IMG/VR virus record: IMGVR_UViG_3300001750_000012
Coordinates: 1-40,810 of that record
DNA from: a virus
Reading direction: 5' to 3' (one strand)
DNA length: 40,810 nucleotides
Below the pieces are notes generated by a model. That model made no database searches and was not told where the DNA came from. It worked only from the letters and a program-made list of their open reading frames with translations. Numbering within the stretch: position 1 is the first letter of the stretch; every line of letters begins with the position of its first letter. The translations under genes were made by a program, and so were the position numbers. Of this stretch, positions 7,704 to 29,315 are shown piece after piece.

Positions 7704-7928
7704 ATGAGTAATGAGGATTATAAAAGGGAAAGGCGGTTCATGGAAACGAGCCCAGCCCGTTACCCGGAAGAAAGGAAGTATTTTGCTGCTTTAAATCGGC
7801 ATTTGCAAGTATCAGGAGTTTGGTCAACGACCACGACCACGACCACGACCACGACAACTTCTACTACTTCAACTTCCAGTTCCACGACTACTTCAACTTC
7901 ATCAAGTACAACCACAACTACTGCTTGA
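7704..7928 (+). CDS. Small protein with threonine/serine-rich C-terminal tail
   Basis: A 74-residue protein directly after the major capsid gene. Residues 1-41 are charged and helical (MSNEDYKRERRFME, then YPEERKYFAALNRHLQ); residues 42-74 are almost only Thr and Ser, ending in Ala. The Thr tract is encoded partly by a hexanucleotide repeat. Position suggests a capsid-associated or decoration protein, but no family is recognised. The tail would be a natural substrate for O-glycosylation, or could act as a disordered stalk. ATG 7704 is spaced correctly from agggag; the ATG at 7698 is too close. Confidence 0.7.
   Translation: MSNEDYKRERRFMETSPARYPEERKYFAALNRHLQVSGVWSTTTTTTTTTTTSTTSTSSSTTTSTSSSTTTTTA
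7827..7850 (+). repeat. Hexanucleotide repeat (acgacc)x4 coding Thr
   Basis: Four exact copies of acgacc (7827-7850), followed by acgaca, encode consecutive threonines in the tail of the preceding small protein. Such in-frame repeats can gain or lose units by replication slippage without breaking the reading frame, so tail length could vary between phage isolates. Confidence 0.8.
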
Positions 7929-7966
7929 TGATTTGGCAATAATATTCATAAGAAAGGCAGAATAGT

Positions 7967-8320
7967 ATGAAACGGAATAATCCAAAAGTTAAAGGCAAAC
8001 AACGGTATCGATTTTATAAATCGAATTTACCCAAAATTGTTTGGGATCCCAATCGTGATAGAAAATTGGCTGATTTTGATGGTGGATCATTTACAACTGA
8101 TGATATTAAGGTAGCCCAGTTTTTACTTAAAAAAGGGTATCCACAAATCCCAGTTGATGCCACAGAGCCACCGAACGTATTGGTACGTATTCCTGGTAAA
8201 TCCTTGGTGACTGATATGGATGAGGGGGCTATGACTGATATTAAAGTTGGCCCTGCAGGATTCAATCAGGAAACAGGGGTAAGAGTTCCCGTTATCCAAA
8301 AGGGGCCATCACTTCAATAA
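7967..8320 (+). CDS. Hypothetical head-module protein
   Basis: A 117-residue protein, not recognised. The N-terminus is very basic (MKRNNPKVKGKQRYRFYKSN). The middle has a short helical stretch (TTDDIKVAQFLLKKGYPQIP), and the end (GKSLVTDMDEGAMTD, then VPVIQKGPSLQ) is likely beta. Similar small genes between capsid and connector genes in siphophages tend to be head-stabilising or connector accessories. Ribosome site agaaagg precedes ATG 7967. No cysteines, no membrane segment. Confidence 0.65.
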   Translation: MKRNNPKVKGKQRYRFYKSNLPKIVWDPNRDRKLADFDGGSFTTDDIKVAQFLLKKGYPQIPVDATEPPNVLVRIPGKSLVTDMDEGAMTDIKVGPAGFNQETGVRVPVIQKGPSLQ

Positions 8321-8332
8321 AAGGGGGTAGCT

Positions 8333-8773
8333 ATGGCTACTTATTGTGTGGACGCAGATTTATTAAAATACAGAAGCAATATTTTGTCTTTGGGAGTGGA
8401 TGATTGGGAAACTCAAAGGCTGGAAGCATTTGATATTATCAACAGAATGCTTGTGGCTCGATGGTATAACCAAGTAGCCCCTATCCAGGGCATTGACCCT
8501 ACCTTGACCCTTTTTGATCCAATTAAGGTAAAAGATGGGGATTTGACAAGACTTGAAGCATTCAAGACTTTAGAATTTGCGTATATGCTTCTCATGAAAG
8601 ATTGTCCTGAGATTGATGGCTTTGAAAGAAATATGTCTTTGTTTGCCGGTATGTTTGGCAATGAATTTGACGCAGTTATAGGCATGGGTCTTGGGTATGA
8701 TTGGGATGATTCAGGAATAGTTGATACTGATGAAATTGCCATACGGGCACCCAGGCGATTGTTGAGGGCTTAA
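8333..8773 (+). CDS. Head-tail connector (adaptor) protein
   Basis: A 146-residue, mostly helical acidic protein. The start (MATYCVDADLLKYRSNIL) and the repeated aromatic helices (DIINRMLVARWYNQV; LEAFKTLEFAYMLLMKD) fit gp6/Ad1-type head-completion adaptors that sit beneath the portal. Position two genes after the capsid supports this. The aaaaggggg ribosome site lies 12 bases upstream of its ATG. The exact family is uncertain. Confidence 0.65.
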   Translation: MATYCVDADLLKYRSNILSLGVDDWETQRLEAFDIINRMLVARWYNQVAPIQGIDPTLTLFDPIKVKDGDLTRLEAFKTLEFAYMLLMKDCPEIDGFERNMSLFAGMFGNEFDAVIGMGLGYDWDDSGIVDTDEIAIRAPRRLLRA

Positions 8774-8774
8774 A

Positions 8775-9245
8775 ATGAGTACTATTGAATTAACCGGATT
8801 AAAGGGCTTGACTCGAAAGATAACGGCCCTCCGTGATGCTCCATTCCGTGATATGATGCTGGGTGATATTGGGATGTATGCCATGACCAGAATCAAACGC
8901 AGAACTCTTAAAGGGGAGGATGTGCATGGCCTTGACTTCACTCCTTATTCAAAAGGATATGCAGTGGAAAGAGGTAAAAGGGATTTTCCTGTTAAGCCGG
9001 TAGATTTGACCAGAACAGGGTCAATGCTTTCAGCCATGACTTATGATACAAATAGGGATTCTGTTGATATCTTTTTTATGAATACACAAGGTCCAGAAGC
9101 ACCGGGGTATAAAAACAAAGAACGAAACCCGGCAAAAGCATTTTTCCTTCATCAGGATCGGGAGTTTTTTGAGTTGTCCCAGGATGATATAAAAGGAATT
9201 AAGGACATTGTGAATGATTATTATGATAAATTAACCAGAGGATAA
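8775..9245 (+). CDS. Tail completion/neck protein (Mu gpG / HK97 gp10-like)
   Basis: A 156-residue protein with features of the phage virion morphogenesis family: a helical start, the GxDFTPYSKGYAVERG segment (around residues 53-68), an LTRTGSMLSAM segment, and a late RNPAKAFFLHQDREFFELS. Family members (Mu gpG, HK97 gp10) sit at the head-tail joint and are needed for tail attachment. Order fits: adaptor, this protein, terminator, tube. The start overlaps nothing and lies one base after the previous stop, so the genes are probably translationally coupled. Confidence 0.75.
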   Translation: MSTIELTGLKGLTRKITALRDAPFRDMMLGDIGMYAMTRIKRRTLKGEDVHGLDFTPYSKGYAVERGKRDFPVKPVDLTRTGSMLSAMTYDTNRDSVDIFFMNTQGPEAPGYKNKERNPAKAFFLHQDREFFELSQDDIKGIKDIVNDYYDKLTRG

Positions 9246-9249
9246 TATA

Positions 9250-9699
9250 ATGGCCGCAAATAGTAAGAGAGAGCAAATAATTATTAGTGATTTTAATTTG
9301 GTTCAAGCCGTACCAAGTATTAAATCACCGATTAGAACTTTGCCAGAATATGCAGAGTTAACTTGTTATGCTCAAACGCAGTTCCCTGTTTGCGCAGTTG
9401 TTGGTAGAATGCCAGTTCCTAATGAAAAATTTAGTCAAAGGGGAGTAGCAGTTGACCAAATCAGGTCTGAAATCAAAGTGGATATTTTTGTATATTTGCA
9501 AGTAAATGAAGATGCAGATTCTTTGATTTCAAGTGTAGCTGATGATCTTTTCAAACAGCTTTATACTGATGAAAGTCGGGGAAAACTGGTATATGAAACT
9601 ACCATTAAAATTAAAGAAAAAGTAAACATTTGGAATCCTTTTGTGGCTTTTCAAATGACGGCAATTCACAAATATATTCATGATACAGGAGGAATTTAG
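9250..9699 (+). CDS. Tail terminator protein
   Basis: A 149-residue protein in the fixed position between the neck protein and tail tube. Such proteins (lambda gpU, HK97 gp11-like) cap the growing tail tube and set its end. Sequence support is moderate: a central beta stretch (SEIKVDIFVYLQVNEDADS) followed by a helix and a second beta stretch (LVYETTIKIKEKVNIW) matches the expected alpha/beta fold. Ribosome site agagga precedes ATG 9250. Its stop abuts the tube start codon. Confidence 0.65.
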   Translation: MAANSKREQIIISDFNLVQAVPSIKSPIRTLPEYAELTCYAQTQFPVCAVVGRMPVPNEKFSQRGVAVDQIRSEIKVDIFVYLQVNEDADSLISSVADDLFKQLYTDESRGKLVYETTIKIKEKVNIWNPFVAFQMTAIHKYIHDTGGI

Positions 9700-10296
9700 A
9701 TGACAACTCCACATAATACTGGTTTATATGTCCCGTCAGGTAGGGGAATCTTATATGTAGGGGAATGGACAGGCACGACTCCCCCAACTTACCCCACCGC
9801 TTATACGGCTGGAAATTTAGGGGATTTTGTTGATGTCGGGAATGCCACTGCTTTTGATATTGAGCCGGCGACCGAATCAAGGCCCCATCATTCAAGCAGG
9901 GAAGGGGTAAATTTAAAAGATCTTGACCCTGTTACTTCCCTTGACTATGCTTGCAATTTTAATCTGGATGAGATTGCAGCTGCCAATTTAAATATGTTTT
10001 TATTGGGCACCTTGGATGCAACTTCACGGACTATTTCAGGTATGCAGGGATATGACAAAGAGTATGCCATTATCTTTGTTTCAAATAACCCCATTGGTCC
10101 ACAATCTGAGGGATATTTCAGACGGACAAAAATCAAACCAAATGGCCCATTTCAATTGATTGGTAATGAATATCTTTCAATGACTTATCGTGCCGAAGGA
10201 CTTGCTGATACAGCGCATTTTCCTGCGTCACCTTATTTTGATTATAAGATTAAAACCACCACTACCACTTCAACTACAACCACAACTACTACGTAA
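9700..10296 (+). CDS. Major tail tube protein with threonine C-terminal tail
   Basis: A 198-residue protein in the tube position, before the chaperone pair and tape measure. The start (NTGLYVPSGRGILYVGEW, then DFVDVGNATAFDIEP), the ESRPHHSSREGV segment and LDYACNFNLDEI resemble tail tube proteins of the beta-barrel type, which stack as hexamers. The last 14 residues are Thr with one Ser after KIK. Since the C-terminus of the tube fold can face outward, the tail would be repeated along the whole tail surface, offering hundreds of exposed hydroxyls per virion. Ribosome site ggaggaa gives ATG 9700. Confidence 0.82.
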   Translation: MTTPHNTGLYVPSGRGILYVGEWTGTTPPTYPTAYTAGNLGDFVDVGNATAFDIEPATESRPHHSSREGVNLKDLDPVTSLDYACNFNLDEIAAANLNMFLLGTLDATSRTISGMQGYDKEYAIIFVSNNPIGPQSEGYFRRTKIKPNGPFQLIGNEYLSMTYRAEGLADTAHFPASPYFDYKIKTTTTTSTTTTTTT

Positions 10297-10306
10297 AGGC
10301 CGAATT

Positions 10307-10753
10307 ATGAGAAAATCAGGAACCGTTAACATAGATCTTGATGGCGGGGAAACTATAAATTATACTATAAAAGAATTGACTATTAAAGATATTATTGAAT
10401 TAAGTCAAAATAATCAATTTTTTAAATCTGAAGAAGCCCCAACCACACCAATTGAGAAATCACAAAACGGCCAGGAACCAGTTATTCAAAAAAGGCAAAA
10501 AGGTTTTTTGGATGAATTAAAAGAATATTCTGACGAAATTAGTGAAGTCATGAAAAAGACTTGTGATTTTAAATTGCAGGATTTAATTGATAATAATCTG
10601 GCTCCGTCAGAAATTAAACTTTTGTGGGACAAGTTTCGGGAGGTGAACCAAGATTTTTTAGACGTATTAGAAAAGTTGAAAATAATAAAGCTATTCAGCA
10701 AAATGTTGGAGAAGCATATAAACAACTTTTCAAAGATTCTTGCCATCTTATAG
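10307..10753 (+). CDS. Tail assembly chaperone, short form (lambda gpG-like)
   Basis: A 148-residue zero-frame product of the tail chaperone locus between tube and tape measure. The N-terminus (MRKSGTVNIDLDGGETI, then YTIKELTIKDIIELS) resembles tail assembly chaperones with a beta start and a 'kEltv.D' segment. The last ~30 residues after the slippery site (10654-10660) belong only to this short form. By analogy with lambda gpG it coats the tape measure protein before tube polymerisation. I chose ATG 10307 (ribosome site taaagg); an open upstream frame runs back through the tube gene and is spurious. Confidence 0.8.
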   Translation: MRKSGTVNIDLDGGETINYTIKELTIKDIIELSQNNQFFKSEEAPTTPIEKSQNGQEPVIQKRQKGFLDELKEYSDEISEVMKKTCDFKLQDLIDNNLAPSEIKLLWDKFREVNQDFLDVLEKLKIIKLFSKMLEKHINNFSKILAIL

Positions 10754-10920
10754 AAGCAGGTCATACTGATGTTTTATCTTATGGATATAGTTTTTTTGTT
10801 TTAGCCCTGAATGAACATCAATTAATTAATAATGAAACCCAAAAAGATTTTGCCAGTTCAATGAGAATAGCCAGGTTTGCAGATGATAGGGCGTGGAGCA
10901 GATTTATGAAAAGGAGATAA
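10307..10920 (+). CDS. Tail assembly chaperone, -1 frameshift fusion (lambda gpGT-like)
   Basis: A -1 ribosomal frameshift at the T TTT TTA heptamer (10654-10660) would join the upstream frame to an open frame ending at 10920, giving a 204-residue protein. The downstream part (RRIRKVENNKAIQQN to RWSRFMKRR-like basic end) has no good start codon or ribosome site of its own, and the shift direction and position are those of lambda G/GT. The T domain recruits tail tube subunits to the tape measure-chaperone complex. The ratio of short to long form is usually critical for tail assembly. Confidence 0.85.
10654..10660 (+). promoter_or_regulatory. -1 programmed frameshift slippery heptamer T TTT TTA
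   Basis: In the zero frame the codons read gaT TTT TTA, exactly the X XXY YYZ pattern. After slipping one base back the next codon is aga (10660), entering the open frame to 10920. It is the only perfect X XXY YYZ heptamer I noticed in the shared open stretch (10624-10753). A downstream stimulatory structure was not obvious by eye. Confidence 0.85.
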
Positions 10921-10922
10921 AA

Positions 10923-13732: not shown

Positions 13733-15373
13733 ATGACTACTTCAGTTGATGATTATTTTTTAATTGAACCAAATTGGCAAAGGGGGATATCTTTTAAAAA
13801 GAAGTGGAAGACAACTTTTCAAACATCAATTAATAATAGTCCAAAGAAATCAGCAATTTTTACTTGGCCTCGCAGGGTTTTATCATTTAAGATAGAAACC
13901 GGAACTTATGGCCAAACATCTTATGTAAAACGAAAGATTAATAAAAATTTACAAAAAGTATGGGGTATTCCGTATTGGCAAGATTCAGCAACTTTATTAG
14001 ATGAAGTTTTGTTAGGCCAAAAAATATTATTAATTACTGAAACGGCAAATAGAAATTTTGAAGTAGGGGCAAAATGCGTTATTTATAAAAATCAAAATGA
14101 ATTTGAAATTGCCACAATTGCTACTATTTCAGCAAATCAAATAACCGTTGTTGATAATTTGGTATCAACTTGGGAAAGTGGAATATGTGTTTATCCTATC
14201 CTAAAAGCAAGGATTCAAATTGTTCAAAGTAGTGTATATTCCACAAATATTTTGGCTGATATTAATATTGAAGCATCCGAAGAATTTGATGAAATTACAA
14301 GATATAGTCCTTCGATTTCAGCTTGGCCAGTTTACAAAGATTATCCTATTTTTAATATTTTGCCGGATTGGTCAACTCAGGTCCAAGAAGATCAAATGCA
14401 CCAAAGTGAATTATTAGCCTATTTAGGAAAAAGTACTTTTTGGGATGAATGGGAGAATAATGATATAAAAGAAAAGGCATCATATTATGGAGTTGATAAA
14501 GATGCTATTCAAAGTATAATTGAATTCTTTGATTATCATAAGGGTAGATTTGGTTCTTTCTGGAGACCATCTTGGTTGGTTGATATTAAGGTGAATTTAC
14601 CGGCAAGCAGTTCGGATACTTTATTGCCAATTGAAAATATTGAATATGGGACTTATTATGAAGGAACTCCCCTTGGTGATTACATTATCATTATTTGGCC
14701 AAATGGGGATTATCAGGTAGTAGGGGTCAAACTTGCGCAGGATGCTGATACCTTGCGCTTAACAAATGGTCTGGCTTATGATATTACTCAGGAAGATATC
14801 AATGGTGGATTATTGGTCTGTTTTTGTTCATTTTGTCAATTTAATCAAGATGAAATAGAATTAAAATATCTAACAGATTCAAAAGTTGATATTGATTTAA
14901 CTTTTAAATCTTCCTATTCTGAACAACCAATAATGACAACTACCACTACTTCAACGACCACGACTACTTCAACGACTTCTTCATCAACTACATCAACTAC
15001 TGTTTTTGGGGGGACTACTACTACTTCAACGACCACGACTACTTCGAGTTCGACTACAACATCTTCAACAAATTCAACTACTTCAACGAGCACGAGTACT
15101 TCAACTTCATCTTCATCAACCACAACATCAACTTTTTCGACTACATCAACTTTTTCGACTACGAGTACGAGTTCTACTTCAAGTACAAGTTCAACGACCA
15201 TGACAAATCCACCAATTTTGTCAACAACGACTACGAGTTCTACTTCAACGACCACTACTACTCAAACAGGAACAACTTCAACTACTCTCTCATTTCAACA
15301 AGGAGAAGACGTAAGTTCTGGAGTTACTTCATATTTTAAACCAGCGCACATAATAGGATTTAATGAAAATTAA
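13733..15373 (+). CDS. Distal tail protein with a ~120-residue Thr/Ser-rich segment
   Basis: A 546-residue protein following the tape measure. Residues ~1-400 form the globular part; FFDYHKGRFGSFWRPSWLVD resembles the G-R-x-G-x-F-W-x-P-S-W segment of DUF2460-like/distal tail proteins. Residues ~402-518 are almost only Thr and Ser with a few Phe, Gly, Val and Asn, and a short ordinary C-terminus (QQGEDVSSGVTSYFKPAH) closes the protein. The low-complexity part is probably an extended, disordered, possibly glycosylated stalk. In the usual gene order a DUF2460 gene precedes DUF2163; here two extra genes lie between. Start ATG 13733 has only a weak ribosome site and probably depends on coupling. 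Confidence 0.72.
   Translation: MTTSVDDYFLIEPNWQRGISFKKKWKTTFQTSINNSPKKSAIFTWPRRVLSFKIETGTYGQTSYVKRKINKNLQKVWGIPYWQDSATLLDEVLLGQKILLITETANRNFEVGAKCVIYKNQNEFEIATIATISANQITVVDNLVSTWESGICVYPILKARIQIVQSSVYSTNILADINIEASEEFDEITRYSPSISAWPVYKDYPIFNILPDWSTQVQEDQMHQSELLAYLGKSTFWDEWENNDIKEKASYYGVDKDAIQSIIEFFDYHKGRFGSFWRPSWLVDIKVNLPASSSDTLLPIENIEYGTYYEGTPLGDYIIIIWPNGDYQVVGVKLAQDADTLRLTNGLAYDITQEDINGGLLVCFCSFCQFNQDEIELKYLTDSKVDIDLTFKSSYSEQPIMTTTTTSTTTTTSTTSSSTTSTTVFGGTTTTSTTTTTSSSTTTSSTNSTTSTSTSTSTSSSSTTTSTFSTTSTFSTTSTSSTSSTSSTTMTNPPILSTTTTSSTSTTTTTQTGTTSTTLSFQQGEDVSSGVTSYFKPAHIIGFNEN
14936..15285 (+). repeat. Low-complexity Thr/Ser codon tract
   Basis: About 350 bases built from act, aca, acg, acc, tca, tct and agt codons in irregular order, with recurrent units such as acttcaacgaccacgact (14947-14964 region and again near 15023-15040) and actttttcgactacatca-like units near 15130. 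It encodes the Thr/Ser stalk of the distal tail protein. The complementary strand reads as a Val/Glu-rich open frame that is an artefact of the repeat. Confidence 0.85.
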
Positions 15374-15390: not shown

Positions 15391-16707
15391 ATGACAATGC
15401 GAAGAATTGTAGCTTTAGCAGTTGCTGATAGGGCAGCTTGTATTGCTTTAATAGAAACTGAATTAGTAGCAATGGGATGGACTCTTCATGATGATCAATT
15501 ATCAGGAAGTAATTATGTTGTTTATTATTCAGATGGTGAAAGTGATAAGCCTTGTTATTGGAGAAATTATTTAAAATTAAATTTAACTGTTGCAAATAAA
15601 ATTCAACTTCACCGGTATTATTTTTGGAATAACAGCACTCATGCAGGATTAATCAAAATTGGAGGTGATTCATATAATTTTATTATTACATCTGAAAGTC
15701 CGTTTTATTTTTGGATGACTGGTAATAAAGATTTTTTATCTTTTATTACAAAAGTTGCTGCATCTTATTATGGTACTATTATGGCAAGAATATCATGTGC
15801 CCATAAAGCAATAGCCAAATTAGGGGCTTCTGTTACAACTGGATTGGTTAAAGTATTACAGCTTGGAAAAGGGCAAGCTCAATATTTTACTGTTGGTGCT
15901 ATGGTATCTATTTGGGACACTCAAAATTCATCATGTACCGGAAGATCACACAAATCAATAATAACAGCAGTGGATAGAGTGAACCATACAATAACAGTTG
16001 ATCAGATTTATTTAGCCTTTCAAGCCGGTGCTATTGTTGGATATGCTCCTGATCCATATATTTTGATGAATTTTAATGCACTGCAATGTTATACAGCTTC
16101 TGAGATTTATACAACTCAAGGTACTGCTAATATTTCTGGATATAATGCATGTTATGAATTATTTGATCCTGCTTTTTTAGACCCAGATAATTTTAGTGGG
16201 GCAATTAATCAAGGGCCATCTAATTTATACATTGGTAGTCCTTTGATGGTTAAAAGGGGAACTGGTGGTACTGGTTTGATTGGGTTTCTTGACAACTTTC
16301 TTTTAAAAAGTCCTTTTGAAGCTGTAGCCGATTATACTTCATATGAAGATACCGTTTGTATAGGAATTCAGCAAGAGGAGACTTTGGCAACTTCTGGATC
16401 AACAACTGCTTTAAATGATACCGGGCAAAGTTGGACTGTTAATGAATTTGTTGATAAAGTCGTAATTATAACAACTGGAACTGGTGCTGGTCAAATGCGA
16501 TTGATAACAGCAAATTCAGCCACTGCTCTTACTCCAGATGTTAATTTTTCAATAGCACCTGATTCAACTTCTTATTATGTTATTTGTGATGAAGGTTGGA
16601 GACATTGGGGATTTGCTTCTGCAGCAAATACCAGATTATCTTTAGAAGTTGGAATATCTCCAAGAGTAACTGATTATTTTGTGACAACTACAACTACCAC
16701 AGTTTAA
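15391..16707 (+). CDS. Tail-associated structural protein with short Thr C-terminus
   Basis: A 438-residue protein of unknown family between two tail genes. N-terminal ~140 residues begin with a helix, followed by a YYSDGESDKPCYWRNYLKLN segment and beta-rich sequence resembling virion proteins that cover the tail or bind receptors. Residues ~355-400 (STTALNDTGQSW, then TTGTGAGQMRLITANSATALT) match a small beta motif recurrent in phage structural proteins. It ends V-T-T-T-T-T-T-V, a short version of the Thr tails on other virion genes. Ribosome site aaaggag precedes ATG 15391. Confidence 0.65.
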   Translation: MTMRRIVALAVADRAACIALIETELVAMGWTLHDDQLSGSNYVVYYSDGESDKPCYWRNYLKLNLTVANKIQLHRYYFWNNSTHAGLIKIGGDSYNFIITSESPFYFWMTGNKDFLSFITKVAASYYGTIMARISCAHKAIAKLGASVTTGLVKVLQLGKGQAQYFTVGAMVSIWDTQNSSCTGRSHKSIITAVDRVNHTITVDQIYLAFQAGAIVGYAPDPYILMNFNALQCYTASEIYTTQGTANISGYNACYELFDPAFLDPDNFSGAINQGPSNLYIGSPLMVKRGTGGTGLIGFLDNFLLKSPFEAVADYTSYEDTVCIGIQQEETLATSGSTTALNDTGQSWTVNEFVDKVVIITTGTGAGQMRLITANSATALTPDVNFSIAPDSTSYYVICDEGWRHWGFASAANTRLSLEVGISPRVTDYFVTTTTTTV

Positions 16708-18255: not shown

Positions 18256-20409
18256 ATGTCATTAGGTGGATTCCTCGGTGGGGCAATAGGTGGGACAATA
18301 GGATTTTTCCTTGGTGGCCCAATGGGGGCAGTTTATGGGGCTGGGTTAGGTCTTGGTGTTGGGGTGATGATTGACCCAATTACTGCAGATGTCCCAACCC
18401 CAGGGTTACCAAATCCAGAAAAAAGCGTGACAATCAGTACTATTGGTGACCCTTGTCCAGATTTACTTGGTATTGGTAAAATAACTGGGCATCTTTTGAT
18501 ATATTTAAATGAAAGATCAGAGGCGCAATATTCTGAAACAAGTTCAGGGGGAAAAGGGGGCTCACCATCTTCAAGTTCTCAATTGTCTGGATATAAATAT
18601 TACGCTACTTGGGCCTTAGGTTTTGTAAAAGGACCAGTTGATATTCTTTACACCATTTTTAAAAATGACAATGTGGTTTGGGAAGGATATTTGGAATGTC
18701 CTGTTTCAGGTGGACAAGAAACAGTTACTTTACTTGATATGGGGTCATGTACTTTTTATTTTGGAACTGATGATCAAATACCAAATACAACTCTTGGTGG
18801 ATTGATGGATGATGAAACTTTAAATACTCCATATAGGAATTATTGTTGGGCCGTTTTTAATGATTGCTATATTGGTAATTATCCTCGAATGCCAACCATG
18901 ACAATTATGGTACAAAAAACTCCTGTTTTATCATTTAATTCCAATAATATTATCAAATTATATGATTATAACCCAGCCCATGCTTTGTGGTATATTTTAA
19001 ATAATTTGACTGGATTACCAGAAAGTTATTTAAATGAAAGTTCTTTTAGTCAGGTGGCTAATACTTTATTAAGTGAAAATAGGGGGATATCTGTTTTATT
19101 AAAAGATCAGACAAATGCTATGACTTATATTCAATCAATAAATAGTCATATTGATAATATTTTGCGGTATGGATCTGATGGAAAATTTTATACTAAATTA
19201 ATTCGGGATGATTATGTTGTTGATGATTTATTATTGGTTGATGAAAATACCCTTTTAGAAACTCCTGTTTTTTCAAGAAAAGCGTGGATTGATACCCTTA
19301 ATGAAATAAAAGTTCAATATTCTGAATTAATTAATTTATTAACTGGTTTTTATGGGGCCGGTCAGAATGGGTATAGATGTATTGGGCTTCCAATAGATAT
19401 TGCAATTGATGAATTAACAAGAATTATTATTGGTGATGTAATTAGTGTAGCTTGTTTTAATGATGGAGCAATGTTTGTTACTGAAACTGGCCAACTATAT
19501 GGAATTGGTAAAAATGCATCAAAAGTCATGCCAGGTATTGCTGAAAATGTTGAATTATTAGAACTTACTTTATTAGACGAAGGCCCTTGGAAGCAAGTAT
19601 CTTGCATGAATAATCACACTTTATTACTTTCACAATCAGGTTTTATTTTTTCATGTGGTTGGAATTCTCACGGTCAATTAGGTTTAGGTTTGCCACGAGA
19701 TAATTATGGAACAAATTTACAAGATTTAACTATGATTGGAATTAATTCAGACTGGGAATATATTCATGCTGGGGTATATACTTCATATTTTATAAATACT
19801 TCTCATCAAATGTATGATTGTGGTTATGGTGGTTTTGGTAATTTAGGTTTGGGTAATAATGTTTCATATCTGGATCTCCAATTAGTTCCAGAGTCAATTT
19901 CCTGGAAATATGTAACTACTCCAAAAAACTTTTATTCAATGGCAAGTGCTATTGATATTGAGGATAATTTATATGGATGTGGAGCAAATTCATATGGTCA
20001 GTTAGGTTTAGGATATTCGAGTTTTAGACCAAATGAATTTGAACAATCATTAGTATCTGGATTAAAAGTAAAAAAAATTCAATTAACTGGTACTTCAAGT
20101 CAAGAAGGTATTCATATTTTGACTACTGATGGAGATATTTATGTTGCTGGTCATGGGTCATATAATAAATTGGGTTTAGATGATGGTCAATTGTTTCATA
20201 TTGACCCAGTAAAAATAGCAGGAAGTGATTATACTGATATTGAAACCCATGCAATGGGGGGTTTTAATTTAACTGCTGGTGGGCTCATTAATAGAACAGG
20301 TGGAGCTTTAGGTTATTGGGGTGGAAATGTGGCAGAATGGACTCCTTATGATGATGGAGAGTGGATAAAATTATTTGGTGCTACAAATAATTTGTATGCG
20401 TGGAAATAA
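18256..20409 (+). CDS. Tail tip protein N-terminal half fused to an RCC1-like beta-propeller
   Basis: A 717-residue chimeric protein. Residues ~1-35 are a Gly-rich hydrophobic start; residues ~40-360 match the N-terminal half of J/GTA-type tail tip proteins (GDPCPDLLGIGKITGHLL; TWALGFVKGPVDILY; DTLNEIKVQYSEL). From about residue 361 the sequence changes to RCC1-type repeats of about 50-58 residues, with NSHGQLGLG (470), GNLGLG (528), NSYGQLGLG (578) and NKLGL (~638), plus a degenerate first unit near 420. The rest of the tip protein is encoded by the next gene. The propeller is therefore an insertion, perhaps a receptor-binding module. Confidence 0.85.
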   Translation: MSLGGFLGGAIGGTIGFFLGGPMGAVYGAGLGLGVGVMIDPITADVPTPGLPNPEKSVTISTIGDPCPDLLGIGKITGHLLIYLNERSEAQYSETSSGGKGGSPSSSSQLSGYKYYATWALGFVKGPVDILYTIFKNDNVVWEGYLECPVSGGQETVTLLDMGSCTFYFGTDDQIPNTTLGGLMDDETLNTPYRNYCWAVFNDCYIGNYPRMPTMTIMVQKTPVLSFNSNNIIKLYDYNPAHALWYILNNLTGLPESYLNESSFSQVANTLLSENRGISVLLKDQTNAMTYIQSINSHIDNILRYGSDGKFYTKLIRDDYVVDDLLLVDENTLLETPVFSRKAWIDTLNEIKVQYSELINLLTGFYGAGQNGYRCIGLPIDIAIDELTRIIIGDVISVACFNDGAMFVTETGQLYGIGKNASKVMPGIAENVELLELTLLDEGPWKQVSCMNNHTLLLSQSGFIFSCGWNSHGQLGLGLPRDNYGTNLQDLTMIGINSDWEYIHAGVYTSYFINTSHQMYDCGYGGFGNLGLGNNVSYLDLQLVPESISWKYVTTPKNFYSMASAIDIEDNLYGCGANSYGQLGLGYSSFRPNEFEQSLVSGLKVKKIQLTGTSSQEGIHILTTDGDIYVAGHGSYNKLGLDDGQLFHIDPVKIAGSDYTDIETHAMGGFNLTAGGLINRTGGALGYWGGNVAEWTPYDDGEWIKLFGATNNLYAWK

Positions 20410-20428
20410 ATAAAAGGGGGAGAATAAA

Positions 20429-21817
20429 ATGGCACTTGATTTTAAAAAATCTATGGCAGATCCACCTGCCCGTGATCCAGGAAATAGAGCTATTCAAAAT
20501 AGGATAGTTTCAAAAACAATTCAGCTTGGATTATTCACCAGAAACTCAAATGCAGTATGGGCTGCTAAACAACAATTACAAAAAGAATCATATCCTTTTG
20601 CTATTTTATCTTTGGTAGTGAATAGAAATTTATTTAGATTACAAGTTGGTGATACTTTTAAATTTTCATTTGCTAAATATGGAATAGTTGAAATGATTTT
20701 ACGGATTTTATTTATCGAAGAAAGTTCAATGGAATCTGAAAAAATCACAATAAATTGTATGGAAGATATATTTGGAGTTGCCAAATCAACAACTACTTTT
20801 ATTTCAACTATTGTTGATCATTCAGTGCAACCAACCGATTATACCCCAGAAGGATTTGATTATGTAAAAGTTGCTGAGGCCCCTTATGCTTTATCAGGAA
20901 CTGGAATTCAAGTAATACCAGTAGCTGCCAGAATGACCCCGGTTGATCTTGGGTTTGAACTTTATATTAGTTATGATGACAGTTCATATAATTTAATAGA
21001 TACTTTTGCTAATATCCAACCATATGGAGAATTAACCGAAGAATATCCTTTAACTTTTCCAATTGATGATACTAATGGCATTTTGATAAATTTTTCAACA
21101 ACTGATGTTTCTTTGATTGATACTATTGCGTGGTCTAATACTCTTAGTGGTCAAAATAATCTGTTATCAATCGAAGATGAAATAATTTCATTCACATCAA
21201 TTACGCCTGTTTCTGGAACCATTTATTTATTAGAAGGGGTTATTCGTGGGAGATATGGGACGAGTCAAGCTGTTCACCCAATTGGAACCGGAGCTTTTTT
21301 TATTAATCAATTTATAGGGCAAGTTGACGATACTGAAATTATAGCCGGGGCCACCAGATATTTTAAATTGGTTCCCTTTAATAATCAGTTAAAAGGGAGT
21401 ATTTCAGATTCAATTGCTTTTCCATTGGTTATCTCAGGGGTTGCTAAAACTCCTTACAGGGTAGTAAATTTTTGTGGTAATGGGGCATCTTTTGCTTCAA
21501 GATATTCTGCAGATATTATTTTAACTTGGAGTGCCAGAAAAAGAGGAACTGGGGCAGGTATTGGAGTACCAGGAACTATTTTAGCAAATAGTGATCATGA
21601 GGGATATTTTACTGTGGAAGTTTGGGTAAGTTCTGTTTTGGTAAGAACTGAAACCGATATTAATGCCTTAACCTGGACTTATTCTTCAGCGGCAAATATT
21701 TCTGATAATGGAGCATTAGCAACTTCCATTGAATTTAAAATAACTAATTTTATTGAAGAAGACGGAACCACTTATAGATCTGTTTCAACTTCATTAATTA
21801 CAAAACTATCACTTTAA
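20429..21817 (+). CDS. Tail tip protein C-terminal half (J/GTA-like)
   Basis: A 462-residue protein that continues the tail tip protein interrupted by the RCC1-like insert. Its start (FKKSMADPPARDPGNRAIQ) is the segment that normally follows the NEIKVQY strand. ESYPFAILSLVVNRNLFRLQ, the GDTFKF step and INCMEDIFGVA are family hallmarks, and later parts (IIRGRYGT-like, QFIGQ) form beta domains. It has its own strong ribosome site (aaaaggggg), so the two halves are made separately and would have to assemble as a split protein. C-terminus has a fibronectin-like beta region (~360-460). Confidence 0.82.
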   Translation: MALDFKKSMADPPARDPGNRAIQNRIVSKTIQLGLFTRNSNAVWAAKQQLQKESYPFAILSLVVNRNLFRLQVGDTFKFSFAKYGIVEMILRILFIEESSMESEKITINCMEDIFGVAKSTTTFISTIVDHSVQPTDYTPEGFDYVKVAEAPYALSGTGIQVIPVAARMTPVDLGFELYISYDDSSYNLIDTFANIQPYGELTEEYPLTFPIDDTNGILINFSTTDVSLIDTIAWSNTLSGQNNLLSIEDEIISFTSITPVSGTIYLLEGVIRGRYGTSQAVHPIGTGAFFINQFIGQVDDTEIIAGATRYFKLVPFNNQLKGSISDSIAFPLVISGVAKTPYRVVNFCGNGASFASRYSADIILTWSARKRGTGAGIGVPGTILANSDHEGYFTVEVWVSSVLVRTETDINALTWTYSSAANISDNGALATSIEFKITNFIEEDGTTYRSVSTSLITKLSL

Positions 21818-21830: not shown

Positions 21831-22322
21831 ATGACAACTTCTAAATACAGCTTGCATAATATTGAATATTCAGTTCAGGGCTGGGATACAATTATGAATT
21901 CAGACATGGCCCAATTAGATTCTGTAATTCATACTAATTTACAAGCTATTCTTGGTGAAACAGTTGGTCAATATAAAGCTGTTGGAATTTTTAAAGGGGA
22001 AACCAAGTATAAATTAGCTAAGTCAGGTGGAAAATTACAACCTGCATTAGGATTGACTTTGGTAACTGGAATTTTGGATGATGAAATTAATATTCAAAGA
22101 GTGGGACCTATTACAAATGCAGCTTGGACTTTTATTCCGGGTTCCCCAGTATTTTTAAGTGCAAGTATTGCAGGAGAATTGACTCAAAGTCCAAGTGGAA
22201 CAACTCAGATAATGGGCATGGCACATAGCGCAACTACCCTAATTTTAAATGGTTCATATGATATTGGTTCATTACCAAGTACAACTTCAACGACGACATC
22301 AACTACTACCACTACAGCTTAA
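21831..22322 (+). CDS. Tail fibre-type/tip-attached protein with Thr C-terminal tail
   Basis: A 163-residue protein at the end of the tail operon. WDTIMNSDMAQLDSVIHTNLQ is the short helical segment seen in tail fibre attachment proteins, followed by a beta domain with the PVFLSASIAGELTQSPSGT and GMAHSATTLILN pattern common in phage structural beta modules. The last 14 residues are Thr/Ser (ending in Ala), like four other virion genes here. No receptor-binding domain is recognised. Ribosome site ggaggaa precedes ATG 21831. Confidence 0.7.
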   Translation: MTTSKYSLHNIEYSVQGWDTIMNSDMAQLDSVIHTNLQAILGETVGQYKAVGIFKGETKYKLAKSGGKLQPALGLTLVTGILDDEINIQRVGPITNAAWTFIPGSPVFLSASIAGELTQSPSGTTQIMGMAHSATTLILNGSYDIGSLPSTTSTTTSTTTTTA

Positions 22323-23291: not shown

Positions 23292-23328
23292 AAAAACCAA
23301 TGTTTATCAAAAACAGAAAGGTATTCAA

Positions 23329-24630
23329 ATGTCAAATAAAAAAACAGTGGCAATCCTGACCAATTTTGCAGAATTTAACCCGGGTTATTCTCTTACTGGA
23401 ATTGTGGTTGATCAGGCACAAATGTTGCTTAAAAATAATCACAAGGTAATCATTTATGTGAATGAATCATATAATAATAAATTTGATGAAGCTGCCGGTT
23501 TGGTAGATCTTGCTAGTAAATATGGTGATCAGCTTATCATTGAAAGAAAAACAAGATTCATGCATTTGAAAGATTATGTGTTGGATGATATGAATGACGA
23601 TCATAAAGAATTATCTGCCGAGGCAGGTGATATCTTCTTTCATTCTTTCCTTGAACATGGTGTCACCATTGTCCTTACACATGACTTTATTTTTACTGGA
23701 TGGAATCTTCCATATTTTCATGCCATCATTGATACAAATAATAAACTTCGATCTGCTCAAATTCCTACCGGGTGGTTTCATTGGGTCCATTCAGTTCCTT
23801 CAGGAAATAGAGACTGGTGGAGTCTTGACAAATTGGGGTTTAATCATTCAGTGGTTTTCCCAAATAAAACGGAAATTATGAGAGTTGCCGAATCTTTTAA
23901 AATTCCATCTGCCCGGGTGAAAATCATACCCCATATAAAAGATATAAGAAATTGGTACGATTTCAGTGATGAGACCAATGAAATTCTTGATAGGTATACA
24001 AGAATTATGGATTCAGAGATTGTTCAAGTTTATCCTTGTTCAACCGATAGATTAGAAGCAAAGCAATTGGGAATAGTGATTGAACTTTTTGCTATCATGA
24101 AAATCAAGACCAAGGTTCCAGTCTTTTTGGTAATTGCAAATCAATGGGCTACTGGGCGCCAAAGAAAGGAAGATATTCAAAAGTATATTGATCATGCAGA
24201 AACAATTGGTTTGATATATGAACGTGATTTTATTTTCACGTCAGAATTAAAAGAAGAATATGCCATTGGGATATCAAGAAAGATTATCCGTGAATTACAA
24301 TTGATTTCAAATCTTTTTGTTTTCCCAACCCGGGAAGAATCTTTTGGTTTAGTTGGCCCGGAAGCTGCTTTTTCTGGAGCAATGGTGGTTACAAATAGGT
24401 CACTTCATATGATGCAAGAGGTGATGTCAATTCATCCACCATCTTTTGATTTTGGATCCTTTTCACAAAAAGTGGATGCTTTGGATGATCCGGGATATAT
24501 TGAAGCGGTGGCAATGGCAATTTTAAATCGGCTTTATTCAAATGAAGCCATAATGACAAAAACATATTGCAGAATGAAGTATAATATGGATTCAATTTAT
24601 ACCAGATATTATCTTCCGGTAATGGGTTAA
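23329..24630 (+). CDS. Glycosyltransferase, GT-B fold (GT4-like)
   Basis: A 433-residue retaining-type glycosyltransferase candidate. The start (KKTVAILTNFAEF, then VDQAQMLLKNNHKVIIYV) has the Rossmann N-domain of GT-B enzymes, and FPTREESFGLVGPEA (E336-x7-E region) is the E-x7-E sugar-nucleotide motif of the GT4 family. It would transfer a sugar from a nucleotide donor to a phage or host acceptor in the cytoplasm. It leads the modification cassette after the late-gene hairpin. Ribosome site aaagg precedes ATG 23329. Acceptor is unknown; the Thr-rich virion tails are one candidate. Confidence 0.8.
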   Translation: MSNKKTVAILTNFAEFNPGYSLTGIVVDQAQMLLKNNHKVIIYVNESYNNKFDEAAGLVDLASKYGDQLIIERKTRFMHLKDYVLDDMNDDHKELSAEAGDIFFHSFLEHGVTIVLTHDFIFTGWNLPYFHAIIDTNNKLRSAQIPTGWFHWVHSVPSGNRDWWSLDKLGFNHSVVFPNKTEIMRVAESFKIPSARVKIIPHIKDIRNWYDFSDETNEILDRYTRIMDSEIVQVYPCSTDRLEAKQLGIVIELFAIMKIKTKVPVFLVIANQWATGRQRKEDIQKYIDHAETIGLIYERDFIFTSELKEEYAIGISRKIIRELQLISNLFVFPTREESFGLVGPEAAFSGAMVVTNRSLHMMQEVMSIHPPSFDFGSFSQKVDALDDPGYIEAVAMAILNRLYSNEAIMTKTYCRMKYNMDSIYTRYYLPVMG

Positions 24631-24652
24631 TGGAAAAACAAAAAGGTTTGTT

Positions 24653-25801
24653 TTGAAAGTTTTATTTTTATTTATGAGTAGTGGGTCAGCCCCGGCAGGG
24701 TCAATTGTTGGGGAGACCTGGAAACAGAAACCGGCTGGTGATCATTATCAAAAAATTCATGGTGATGAATGTTATTTTCAAATGTTTCAATCTTTGATTG
24801 ATAATAAAACAATAACTGATATGAAAGTATTTTTTGAATCTGGAGTTAACCCAGGTTATGCCAATTTTGTGAAAGGGGCTAAAAACTTTGTAATTCCTGA
24901 AATCAATTTGGTAAAAGAATATATTGACGATGATACTATCATTTTTGTTAGAGGAGGTTTTCGTCATTGGCATGATTTCCTTTTGCAATATAAAGGAAAA
25001 AATTGGTTGATTTGCTATGCAGCAAATACTGGCCGGGATAAATGGACATGGTGGGATATTGTTTTTGATGATTTAGGAATGACTAATGAAATTGATAGAC
25101 ATGGTAGGTATCATTTTCCTTTCGTAAAACCAACCAATGAAAATATCTTTCATCCTCAAAATAATCCTATTATATTTGATATCTGTATTGGGGCATCAAA
25201 TATTCATGATAAAAAAGGACAATGGCAAACAGTTAAAGTCATAGAAACTTTTAAAAATAAATATGGCTTTTATCCAAAAACTGTAATGCCAGGAGGGACC
25301 AGAAGATCAACTCAAACTCTTGAAATGTTAAAAACGAATTTTGTAAAAAATGAAGTGGTTATGCCAGGGATTTTAAAAAAATCAACTTTATCATATTTAT
25401 TTTCTGAATGTAAAATTTTTATGCATTTGGGAACGGGTGGTCAAAATGATAGAAGTATCCTAGAGGCTCACGCTTGTGGGATTCCAGTTGTATTATCAAA
25501 TACACCCAGGTTCACCCCATTATTGGTGCATGACTATATTTCAACTTTTGTCTTTAATCCAGGGCAAAGTTATGAGCAATGGGCTGATCATCTTTTTGAT
25601 ATTTTGCGGCGTTTTGATTTAAAAGAAAAAAAAGCCAGGGCTAAAATATACCAACGTAGAATGGGATATGATTCAGTAGTTATTCCACAATTAACCAAAT
25701 TTTTTAAAATGTTAAAAGGGAATCCACCAAATATTGAAAGTAAAGTAAAATTGATGGATTCGTTTAAATCATATGGTAAAAGGAGATATCATGAGAAATA
25801 A
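24653..25801 (+). CDS. Glycosyltransferase, GT-B fold (GT4-like), second copy
   Basis: A 382-residue protein from TTG 24653 (ribosome site aaaagg six bases upstream). N-terminus KVLFLFMSSGSAP is a Rossmann-type start; the C-terminal half has GTGGQNDRSILEAHACGIPV with the E-x-H-A-x-G-x-P-V pattern of GT4 enzymes and a final helix. It is a different enzyme from the preceding one, not a recent duplicate, judging from the lack of shared long segments. It overlaps the next gene's start by a few bases, showing operon coupling. Donor and acceptor unknown. Confidence 0.75.
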   Translation: MKVLFLFMSSGSAPAGSIVGETWKQKPAGDHYQKIHGDECYFQMFQSLIDNKTITDMKVFFESGVNPGYANFVKGAKNFVIPEINLVKEYIDDDTIIFVRGGFRHWHDFLLQYKGKNWLICYAANTGRDKWTWWDIVFDDLGMTNEIDRHGRYHFPFVKPTNENIFHPQNNPIIFDICIGASNIHDKKGQWQTVKVIETFKNKYGFYPKTVMPGGTRRSTQTLEMLKTNFVKNEVVMPGILKKSTLSYLFSECKIFMHLGTGGQNDRSILEAHACGIPVVLSNTPRFTPLLVHDYISTFVFNPGQSYEQWADHLFDILRRFDLKEKKARAKIYQRRMGYDSVVIPQLTKFFKMLKGNPPNIESKVKLMDSFKSYGKRRYHEK

Positions 25802-26231: not shown

Positions 26232-26239
26232 AATCCAAA

Positions 26240-26956
26240 ATGAATATTACAAATGATAATTTGCTCAAAGGTAAAAATGATATAGTACTGGCCGGGATAA
26301 AGGGGTCAAAAGCTGGAACAACTTTGCGGCATAAAATATTAAATTCAGTAAGTGGGACGTATAAAGGGGGATTTTTTAAGAATCGAAAAAGTCTTTCCTG
26401 GCGGGCTCCGTATGTTTGTGAAGCATTAGCCAAGACTTATGATTTATTGCAATATAAAGGCAATACTATTGTTGATGTTGGATGCGCAATTGGTGATTAT
26501 GTAAAATGGTTTAATGATTCTGGGTATGTTGCGTGGGGCATTGAGGGTTCTCAGGCGGCAGAAGAATTCATGGTAACTGATCAAGTTTCAATATGGGATT
26601 TACGGTATACTCTAAATATGGGATCATGTGAAAGTAAATATGATCTTGCTTTTAGCCTTGAAGTGGCTGAACATATTGAAATAGAATATGCTAAAATTTA
26701 TGTAGATAATTTGATTCTGTTAAGTGATAATATTCTGATATCTGCAGCTGCCCCCGGCCAAAAAGGGCATGGTCATGTGAATTGTGCCCCGCGTCAATTT
26801 TGGATTAACCTTTTTAAAGAAAAAGGTTTTTCTAATATGAAAGAGTATGAGAATAGATGGAAAACTAATCTTGGTTCATTTGGCCGGACTAAAAAAGAAT
26901 TATCATCATATTATAAAAATGTAATTTGCTTTCAAAGGATGGGTTTACATGAATGA
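26240..26956 (+). CDS. SAM-dependent methyltransferase (class I)
   Basis: A 238-residue class I methyltransferase. Motif I is TIVDVGCAIGDYV (residues 77-88), an acidic residue follows in WGIEGSQAAEE, motif IV-like FSLEVAEHIEIEYA is clear, and a late AAAPGQKGHGHVNCAPRQF region is typical of the Methyltransf_23-like sugar/lipid-modifying families. In a cassette of glycosyltransferases it probably methylates a sugar or hydroxyl group on the glycan. Some phage enzymes of this kind act on DNA or protein, but DNA motifs are absent. Its 3' end overlaps the next gene. Confidence 0.82.
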   Translation: MNITNDNLLKGKNDIVLAGIKGSKAGTTLRHKILNSVSGTYKGGFFKNRKSLSWRAPYVCEALAKTYDLLQYKGNTIVDVGCAIGDYVKWFNDSGYVAWGIEGSQAAEEFMVTDQVSIWDLRYTLNMGSCESKYDLAFSLEVAEHIEIEYAKIYVDNLILLSDNILISAAAPGQKGHGHVNCAPRQFWINLFKEKGFSNMKEYENRWKTNLGSFGRTKKELSSYYKNVICFQRMGLHE

Positions 26957-27701
26957 TAAATTTGATATTATGATGACGGCAACTTTGCGACCGGATTTGA
27001 TAAAAAGGACTTTTGATTCATTCATAAAAAATTTGTTTGGTGATGCTATTACCAATGCTAAATTAATAATGAATATTGATATGGTCGGTTCAAAAACACC
27101 AGATAAGACTTTTCATGAAATTTTGAATTATCTTGAAACGATTCCATTTTATATTAAAAATATATCGGTATCACAAACGCCCAGTTTTTCAAAAGCCTTT
27201 TGTAGGTGTCTGGGGCAGCTTTCATCACCTTATACTTTTAATTTGGAAGAAGATTGGGAAATGGTAAAACCACTTAGTTTTTCTAATATGATTGATTTAT
27301 TTAAACAAGATAATGACCTTGTTCATTTGCGTCTATCATCTTTTAAAAGTACTGGTGAGTCAACCATGAAAGTATGGAATAAGCATATAAAATGGAATGG
27401 TGCATTTTTTGAAATTCCTGAAAATTTACGGGGAACTATTGGATGGGCTGGGCACCCATCTTTAAATAAAACTTCTTTTCTTTTGTATTTTGCAGCTATT
27501 TTAAGACCAGACTCAAATCCTGAAAAACAAATTAAAGGAAATTACATACAAATTTTGAAATCTAATTTTGGTGTATTTCAACCAAAGGGACCATGTCCAC
27601 CAATTATTCAGGATATTGGCAGAAAATGGATGACAGACAACGGATACCAAAAAAAGGGTATTAAAGCTTTTTTTACTGAATGGGAGAAAATAAATGAGTA
27701 A
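26949..27701 (+). CDS. Glycosyltransferase-like protein (GT-A, E-D-W type)
   Basis: A 250-residue GT-A-like enzyme. Start FDIMMTATLRPDLIKRTFDS is the typical nucleotide-binding beginning, and YTFNLEEDWEMV (E100-E101-D102-W103) is the acidic metal/nucleotide motif corresponding to the DxD region. A GTIGWAGHPSLN segment follows in the C-terminal half. It overlaps the methyltransferase stop and its own stop overlaps the HNH gene start, so the whole cassette is translationally coupled. Ribosome site aaagga precedes ATG 26949. Confidence 0.75.
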   Translation: MNDKFDIMMTATLRPDLIKRTFDSFIKNLFGDAITNAKLIMNIDMVGSKTPDKTFHEILNYLETIPFYIKNISVSQTPSFSKAFCRCLGQLSSPYTFNLEEDWEMVKPLSFSNMIDLFKQDNDLVHLRLSSFKSTGESTMKVWNKHIKWNGAFFEIPENLRGTIGWAGHPSLNKTSFLLYFAAILRPDSNPEKQIKGNYIQILKSNFGVFQPKGPCPPIIQDIGRKWMTDNGYQKKGIKAFFTEWEKINE

Positions 27702-28275
27702 CACTATCAAACCAGATTTAAGTATAAAAAGAAATTTTGAAATCTGGAAAGTAATTAAAGAATACCCAAATTATGCTATTTCTAATTTGGGTAAAGTAAA
27801 ATCATTAGAAAGATTAGTACCCCATAGAAAAACAACTATGCTTTTACAGGAAGTATTTATGAAAATTTTTCCAAGAAAAAGAGATCATGGTTACATAAAA
27901 GTAGGTTTGGTTAGAAATGGGGTATGTAAAAGAATAGGAGTTCACCAATTAGTTATTAATTATTTTGGGGAACGAAGGCCTTCTCCTGATCATATCCCAC
28001 ATCACAAAGATGGTGATAAAAGTAATAATTGGTGGACTAATTTAGAATGGGCCACTTATTCTGAAAATATTAAACATGCTTTTGATACTGGATTAAATCC
28101 ATTACCAAAGGGAGAATTGAATCCTGCTGCTAAATTAAATGCTGATAAAGTAAAAACAATTAGAAAGTTATATTCAGTAGGACAATATACTCAAACTATT
28201 CTTGCTGAAATGTTTGGAGTTAAACAACCTTTAATTGGAAAAATAATAAATAAAAAAAGATGGAGGCACATATGA
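27694..28275 (+). CDS. HNH homing endonuclease (NUMOD4-HNH_3 type)
   Basis: A 193-residue free-standing homing endonuclease. NUMOD4 is seen in FEIWKVIKEYPNYAISNLGK; the HNH_3 core is HQLVINYFGERRP then IPHHKDGDKSNNWWTNLEWA; a DNA-binding HTH-like end follows (TILAEMFGVKQPLIGKIIN). It sits between two glycosyltransferase genes. Its first residues (MSNTIKPDLSI) echo the start of the next gene (MKPDLSI), suggesting it inserted at the 5' end of that gene and took over its original start. Selfish element; not expected to take part in glycosylation. Confidence 0.9.
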   Translation: MSNTIKPDLSIKRNFEIWKVIKEYPNYAISNLGKVKSLERLVPHRKTTMLLQEVFMKIFPRKRDHGYIKVGLVRNGVCKRIGVHQLVINYFGERRPSPDHIPHHKDGDKSNNWWTNLEWATYSENIKHAFDTGLNPLPKGELNPAAKLNADKVKTIRKLYSVGQYTQTILAEMFGVKQPLIGKIINKKRWRHI

Positions 28276-29315
28276 AACCTGATTTATCAATTATCATCCC
28301 ATTTGCGGGAGAATATCCCCAGGCTTTGTTTACAATTCAGTCGATTGCTTCAACTCTGTTGGGCAAGCTTAATTTTGAAATAATTGCTGTGAATAATATG
28401 TGCCCAGAATTAACTACTCAATGGCAGTTTGCTCAATATAATGTTGCCAGAGATTTAAGTGAAAAAGCTGCAAAGCAAAATGGGGAGTTAATGGTAAGTG
28501 ATATTAATGAAATTGCCAGTAAACTGGCCCCAAGTTTTCACCAGGATAAAGCAGGAGATGCCATAAAAGCGTCAGCCGGGGGAAATCCTTGGTTGCGTTA
28601 TATGGAATATAACGAACAGCTTAGTCATTGGGAATGTAAAAGGTTGGCTTGTATTGCAGCAAAGGCAGATACTTTTTTATTCATTGATGCCCATTGTGTT
28701 CCTGATGCCGGGATACCTGAAATGTATTCAGATTACATTAATGGATACGAATCAATTGGGACTTTCCATATGCCATTGACTTATAAAATTTTAGAATGGC
28801 GCAAATTGATATATAAAATGGTTGTTGAGAATAATTTTTATGGATATTCTTTTACCAGTATGCCTGATAAAAAAGTCCAGTTATTTGAAGTATCTTGTAT
28901 GAGTACTTGTGGCATGATGATTTCAAGACAGGTATATGAAAGGGTTGGTGGTTGGCCTACTTCATTTGGAGCATATGGCGGTGGTGAAAATTTTATGAAT
29001 TATGCTTTATCAGTTACCGGGCACTCAAAATTCATCCACCCAGGAACTGTTTTGCACCACCATGGGGAAAGACGTGATTACCATTCAACGTATGATGGAA
29101 CTATATGGAATCGGTTTGTGGCGCATTATTTGTTTGGAGGATATAAGGCATTGATTAATCTCCGGGAAGTAACCAAGGGTCGTCCTGAAATTTTAAATGA
29201 TTGGGTCACTAAAATTTTACATGATCCAAATTATATAAGACAGCGCCTATTAATAAAGGATAATACTATCATTACTTTAAATGAATGGGTGGCAAAATGG
29301 AGAAAGAAAGAATGA
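28272..29315 (+). CDS. Glycosyltransferase family 2-like with DxH motif
   Basis: A 347-residue GT-A enzyme. KPDLSIIIPFAGEYPQAL is a GT2 start; FLFIDAHCVPD gives D139-A-H141, a DxH in the position of the usual DxD. DxH is used by polypeptide GalNAc-transferases (GT27 and relatives) that start mucin-type O-glycans on Thr/Ser, although other GT2 enzymes also have it. Later GGWPTSFGAYGGGENF and HPGTVLHHHGE resemble the acceptor/metal part. It may glycosylate the Thr-rich virion tails; this is inference. Start ATG 28272 follows ggagg at five bases; ATG 28260 overlaps that site. Confidence 0.78.
   Translation: MKPDLSIIIPFAGEYPQALFTIQSIASTLLGKLNFEIIAVNNMCPELTTQWQFAQYNVARDLSEKAAKQNGELMVSDINEIASKLAPSFHQDKAGDAIKASAGGNPWLRYMEYNEQLSHWECKRLACIAAKADTFLFIDAHCVPDAGIPEMYSDYINGYESIGTFHMPLTYKILEWRKLIYKMVVENNFYGYSFTSMPDKKVQLFEVSCMSTCGMMISRQVYERVGGWPTSFGAYGGGENFMNYALSVTGHSKFIHPGTVLHHHGERRDYHSTYDGTIWNRFVAHYLFGGYKALINLREVTKGRPEILNDWVTKILHDPNYIRQRLLIKDNTIITLNEWVAKWRKKE

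Follow-up and report, generated by a model that had tools for sequence, protein, structure and literature searches.

The virus record IMGVR_UViG_3300001750_000012, a 40.8-kb stretch of DNA analysed over its whole length (positions 1 to 40,810) and hereafter referred to as the window, contains head and tail genes at ~1-22.3 kb and a block of putative sugar enzymes at 23.3-29.3 kb. Several products of the former region carry threonine/serine (Thr/Ser) tracts, and the association of these tracts with the enzymes, examined here in the window and in other phage records, points to a system by which the phage would glycosylate its own particle. In what follows genes are designated by their first nucleotide.

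Strong Thr/Ser tracts, all in frame and on the + strand, are encoded by genes 7698, 9700, 13733 and 21831; the tract is internal in the product of 13733 and C-terminal in the other three. Gene 7698 (7698..7928, +), located directly 3′ of the gene of the major head protein (6622; phrog_1328), encodes a small post-capsid protein of 76 amino acids, composed of an N-terminal part of ~42 residues and of a 34-residue Thr/Ser tail (7824-7925), and its position suggests that the product is probably a capsid-surface protein. The major tail (tube) protein (9700..10296, +; phrog_807 and above the cut-off of the NCBIfam model tail_tube_6XGR) ends in a 14-residue Thr tail (10252-10293), the protein encoded directly after the tail hub genes (21831..22322, +) ends in a 15-residue Thr/Ser tail (22275-22319), and the tail assembly protein (13733..15373, +; phrog_1082) contains a tract of ~112 residues (amino acids 401-512; 14933-15268) followed by a 34-residue end. 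The original prediction had listed five such proteins, all structural or encoded among structural genes. The four just described stand, and the fifth, the product of 15391 (15391..16707, +), for which family searches gave no match and which has a homologue in one relative (G006_24975), ends merely in TTTTTTV, a weak tail taken alone; furthermore, 9700 and 13733 are structural according to family models and 7698 and 21831, neither of which has a confident functional assignment, according to position only. Runs of ten Thr/Ser codons (WCN) are matched 34 times in the window, always on the coding strand, as opposed to never in 100 dinucleotide shuffles.

The enzyme cassette

The first gene of the cassette, 23329 (23329..24630, +), encodes what is, by its modeled GT-B fold and its Glycos_transf_1 signature, a GT4-type glycosyltransferase, referred to below as the core GT4. 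Its model, with a predicted local distance difference test score (pLDDT) of 88.9, matches BshA, MshA and glycogen synthase (GT-B/GT4), the E-values reaching 2.8e-13 and the template modeling scores being low (0.3-0.4), while the Pfam match (E 2.5e-5) attains 24.3 bits, slightly below the cut-off of 26.4. Fold, Pfam match and distribution make this protein a candidate initiator; no match to its family was found in 50,697 annotated phages. One homologue (G031:C1:42881-44173, in the record of L234) is interrupted by one in-frame TGA and represents a broken copy, an error or a case of recoding.

Gene 24653 (24653..25801, +) encodes a second GT4-type glycosyltransferase (PF00534 and PF13692, both above cut-off) and gene 26240 (26240..26956, +) a methyltransferase (PF13489 above cut-off), perhaps acting on the sugar, both having homologues in G004 and G006. 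The product of 26949 (26949..27701, +), with homologues at the same place in four relatives, has no family match in Pfam, PHROGs or NCBIfam and is considered a glycosyltransferase by position only. Thus, the four glycosyltransferases and the methyltransferase originally proposed are reduced to three supported transferases (23329, 24653 and 28260) and the methyltransferase. A small unassigned protein (29285..29689, +) travels with the cassette, having homologues in G004, G006, the Ser-tailed G007, G009 and G012, and a gene for a homing-type endonuclease (HNH/NUMOD4; 27694-28275) lies inside the cassette between 26949 and 28260, at a place where G004 does not have it.

The last of the transferases, 28260 (28260..29315, +; 351 amino acids), resembles the polypeptide N-acetylgalactosamine (GalNAc)-transferases. 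Pfam gives weak GT2 matches; a profile built with 25 phage homologues finds the polypeptide GalNAc-transferases as best PDB matches over their catalytic domain (E 2.7e-7), the runners-up being TarP (6.9e-5) and heparosan synthase (1.4e-4), and the 26 best Foldseek PDB matches of the predicted structure (pLDDT 69.5, i.e., moderate) are polypeptide GalNAc-transferases. The protein displays a DxH motif (28686-28694) and a GGEN motif (28980-28991), and D143, H145, G241-G242-E243 and H267 are invariant in the 25 homologues. No lectin match was obtained, the protein stopping soon after the catalytic domain, and it is because the ricin-type C-terminal domain is absent that the enzyme is called GT27-like instead of being assigned to GT27. 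Profile and model thus liken 28260 to the enzymes that start mucin O-glycosylation, which take GalNAc from UDP-GalNAc and attach it to peptide Ser/Thr residues. A single distant match was found among the 50,697 annotated phages, Tunturi_4 being the sole cultured phage matched, and the 22 kb of Tunturi_4 examined contain no clear Thr/Ser tail.

Some viruses are known to encode glycosyltransferases acting on DNA (cited in PMC12619734), so that the enzymes of the window could have hypermodified bases of the phage DNA as their substrates, the tails being unrelated to them. Such a function is very improbable, since 28260 best resembles protein glycosyltransferases, a search of 16 relatives, lacking a positive control, revealed no TET/JBP hydroxylase and the link between enzymes and tails described below would not be predicted.

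Threonine and serine tails in related phages

The capsid protein of the window has 77 relatives in IMG/VR, the records of which are metagenomic contigs and possibly incomplete, and relatives in genomes only in a Desulfovibrio metagenome-assembled genome (63%), in Domibacillus (50%) and in a metagenome-assembled genome of Clostridia (47%). In most of the capsid relatives whose records include downstream sequence, both the small post-capsid protein and the tail tube are Thr-tailed, and every orthologue of the former ends in a Thr or a Ser tail. The number of different proteins bearing tracts reaches nine per genome in long records (G008 and G021), the carriers including a tail-fibre-like protein and several proteins without assigned function; within 11 records the tract is at the very C-terminus in 51 of 70 tract genes, all 70 being on one strand. 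Since the tracts are found on many different proteins and mostly at their C-termini, the tail is to be regarded as a tag and not as the trait of a single family. The counterpart of 13733 in L001 has a far longer tract region; the homology of 13733 and of the tail hub gene 18256 across relatives was judged after removal of the tracts, low complexity having partly driven earlier labels.

In some genomes (L011, L012 and L050) Ser takes the place of Thr on both the small and the tail-tube protein; these three records and L037, at first taken as tail-less, are actually Ser-tailed. Across 39 distinct pairs the Ser fractions of the two proteins of one genome are correlated (r 0.84; permutation p <1e-4) and the last residue is identical in 23 pairs as against 9.4 expected (permutation p <1e-4), these permutations not correcting for relatedness. 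A Thr/Ser dialect common to two unrelated proteins is what a shared, trans-acting enzyme would select.

The tails of the paired proteins are written with all four Thr codons (ACC 341, ACA 234, ACT 233 and ACG 232), and since all are well used selection operates on the protein. Within a genome the two tails agree in their synonymous codons at 0.35, as compared with 0.28 expected from composition, which indicates that recent DNA copying is not the main cause of their matching. The slight excess of this agreement and a short ACGACC repeat at 7824-7860 are nevertheless the features to which one could appeal to argue for an origin at the level of DNA, in which slippage and gene conversion would have spread the tracts as simple repeats or recombination sites of no consequence for the protein. 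This explanation is barely credible, considering that the tracts use a mixture of codons and never leave the reading frame, that the tract stops at the stop codon in the aforementioned 51 cases out of 70 and that Ser codons occupy the same places in some genomes.

The small Thr-tailed protein is encoded twice in L033 (1460-2060), L042 (3208-3741), L043 (4359-4874) and L072 (429-2978), one copy often having a far longer or an interrupted Thr run. In the tail-less capsid relatives the post-capsid gene (L062 8668-9084; L052 4773-5186; L074 10969-11388; L065 10985-11404) encodes a protein of 138-140 amino acids with a conserved C-terminal domain, which replaces the small tailed protein; hhalign (probability 9) did not establish homology between the N-terminus of the latter and the N-termini found in the tail-less relatives.

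Co-occurrence of tails and enzymes

Within the capsid family, each of the ten other long Thr-tailed records covering the region has a homologue of 23329, and a further one lies at the contig edge in the contig of L002 (L140), the core GT4 being the one enzyme common to all Thr-tailed relatives that include the cassette region. The accessory genes vary, comprising among relatives a GT9 with a methyltransferase, a sulfotransferase, an epimerase and an acyltransferase. The Ser-tailed G007 lacks the 23329 family and possesses a different cassette of its own, which encodes a 785-residue protein with a GT4-type domain, a GT2-like protein, hexapeptide acyltransferases and a radical S-adenosylmethionine (SAM)/SPASM protein. 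On the other hand, five tail-less relatives (G019, G025, G026, G028 and G029) have neither a Pfam GT1/GT2 match nor a homologue of the glycosyltransferases of the window. Of these, G019 is instructive in that its capsid is shared (71% identical) while its downstream module is different, with neither tails nor enzymes. The co-occurrence of tails and glycosyltransferases in the family is significant by Fisher's test (p 1.6e-4, 12 vs 5), the sample being partly phylogenetic. The original prediction would have been undermined by tailed relatives devoid of any glycosyltransferase; none was found, all tailed records of the capsid family that reach the cassette having such enzymes. G057, a tailed record of 55 kb without glycosyltransferase match, was considered as a counter-example and rejected, its sequence ending just past the tail module.

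The link that had been proposed between tails and cassette is supported also by records nearly all of which lack the capsid of the window. Scans starting from 23329 and from 28260 yielded 55 and 40 loci, respectively; as a control, the helicase 33768 was used as seed and found no relatives, and a scan with random 15-mers was used instead. Ten-codon Thr/Ser runs are present in 39 of 49 whole records collected in this enzyme-first manner and in 3 of 39 random phage contigs (p 3e-12), the three random cases consisting of Ser-codon (TCN) repeats without Thr tails. Only two of the 49 records, some of which are fragments, contain the capsid of the window. Likewise, tract genes lie in the fetched flanks of 32 of the 46 GT4-first loci outside the capsid family, and in those of none of 63 random loci. 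In the converse, tail-first scan, ten Thr codons followed by a stop were found in 71 stretches among 2.9 million contigs, and the core GT4 occurs in 8 of the 38 longer records so obtained and in 0 of 39 random ones. Two of these tail-first records (G050 and G047), from an unrelated lineage, have poly-Thr at the end of the major head protein itself, the gene of which follows two GT2-type genes at a distance of a few genes and, in G050, also a GT4-like and a radical SAM gene; both lack the core GT4 family and, as far as tested, the capsid of the window, and judging from their genes they seem to have arrived at the same arrangement independently.

Several results weigh against a phage-directed glycosylation of the tails or narrow its scope. 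The 28260 family is missing from five Thr-tailed genomes having the core GT4 (G008, G015, G017, G021 and G023), G013 ending before the corresponding position, and because of these five genomes 28260 may start the chains in some phages or be a second enzyme. Furthermore, ten of the 49 enzyme-first records have no run under the pattern used, 30 of the 38 tail-first records, many being fragments, have no core GT4, and relatedness among the records was controlled only in part. Generic GT2 domains (PF00535) are not enriched, occurring in 8 of 38 tail-first and in 9 of 39 random records, and the idea that poly-Thr tails are accompanied by any glycosyltransferase was dropped for this reason.

Phage glycosyltransferases that alter the surface sugars of the host are well known, and the weaker matches of 28260 include TarP, TarS and GtrB; the cassette might consequently modify the host envelope (O-antigen, teichoic acid or another surface glycan), for instance for superinfection exclusion, and the tails might be unmodified flexible spacers. 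We regard this possibility as unlikely, for it accounts neither for the association of enzymes and tails on different phage backbones, nor for the matched tail chemistry of the proteins of one genome, nor for the distinct cassette of the Ser-tailed relative. Even less probable is that the tails are modified mainly by the host or by another chemistry, the contribution of the phage cassette being minor: some bacteria do possess general O-glycosylation, phosphorylation or a radical SAM reaction could be envisaged, and radical SAM/SPASM genes are found in two other cassettes, but it is a full set of phage transferases that accompanies the tails across lineages. The radical SAM/SPASM proteins adjoin glycosyltransferases in L098 (5145-6233, -) and L377 (2073-3107, +), two unrelated tailed phages of which one is Ser-tailed and one Thr-tailed, and might modify sugars or tails.

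As to the remainder of the window, the tail hub gene appears to be split into two open reading frames (18256-21817, corresponding to phrog_1101 positions 38-349 and 362-780), the first being closed by RCC1 repeats, and a single frame spans the region in relatives such as G004 and G006. The frame at 36082-36531 encodes motifs (GLAASQIG, EGCMSFP and QHEIDHLNG) that by eye are like those of a peptide deformylase, and a 352-residue protein (32694-33752) with a LANC-like match, sub-threshold only, is perhaps an alpha/alpha-barrel sugar enzyme.

A proposed pathway and its relation to known systems

Taken together, these data make it quite likely, as far as genes can tell, that the phage directs a mucin-like O-glycosylation of the Thr/Ser tails of its virion proteins, with 23329 or 28260 as initiator. 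In this pathway the tracts, presumably disordered, of the small post-capsid, tail-tube, tail-tip and fibre proteins would be the sugar acceptors. A phage glycosyltransferase, probably 23329 or 28260, would place the first sugar on many Thr/Ser hydroxyls post-translationally in the host cytoplasm, and 24653, possibly 26949, and the methyltransferase 26240 would extend and decorate the glycan before or during assembly. The differing accessory genes would provide each phage with its own coat, which could, speculatively, shield the particle or aid its adsorption. The particles are thus probably sugar-coated by a pathway not previously described in bacterial viruses. The more ambitious formulation, namely that a mucin-type pathway exists in bacterial viruses, in which O-glycans are initiated by a GT27-like enzyme, a new GT4 family or both on a hydroxyl tag that many virion proteins share at their C-termini, the Thr/Ser dialect co-evolving with the cassette across several unrelated lineages, is advanced tentatively, the odds being somewhat against it.

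What would be the significance of such a system? Virion glycosylation would be modular and widespread, a protein joining the sugar coat just by gaining a Thr/Ser tail; phages would possess a relative of the mucin-initiating enzyme, and a sequence rule would permit the prediction of glycosylated phages from metagenomes, with acceptor peptides and enzymes open to direct testing. A literature search for polythreonine or threonine-rich in connection with phage returned nothing relevant.

Three known systems invite comparison. In Gram-positive bacteria the cytosolic GT4 enzymes GtfA/GtfB glycosylate serine-rich repeat adhesins, a precedent for a GT4-type initiator acting on Ser-rich proteins. As in that system, a GT4-type enzyme and further transferases are encoded in the window near Ser/Thr-rich proteins, whereas the acceptors would here be numerous short tails at the C-termini of virion proteins; neither the PDB profile matches of 23329 nor its 50 listed fold matches include GtfA/GtfB.

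In animals, mucin-type O-glycosylation is carried out by the GT27 polypeptide GalNAc-transferases (PMC8724618). The window shares with it the dense Ser/Thr acceptor domains and an enzyme, 28260, that is closest to these transferases by profile and fold and has the DxH and GGE motifs, but 28260 has neither lectin domain nor membrane anchor and the cassette would act in the bacterial cytoplasm.

To our knowledge, only in a few phages has glycosylation of the virion proteins been established. Freeman et al. (2023) reportedly described virion glycosylation of the mycobacteriophages Che8, Corndog and Myrna. According to three articles (PMC12363180, PMC11256854 and PMC12619734), glycosyltransferases encoded by these phages glycosylate the C-termini of capsid and tail-tube proteins. 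Phage-encoded transferases and capsid/tail-tube C-termini are likewise involved here, where glycosylation is predicted from genes alone. Unlike the tailed proteins of the window, the capsid and tail-tube proteins of Che8 end in ...VVVFNKTGS and ...WAEQYSDGS, without a Thr tail, and its gp108-110 belong to other Pfam families (GT2 plus methyltransferase, GT2-like and GT25) and give no match with the profiles of 23329 or 28260. Finally, in the family of the window up to nine proteins per genome carry tracts. The system of the window would thus, judging from its sequence, work like that of the mycobacteriophages, with different acceptors and different enzymes.

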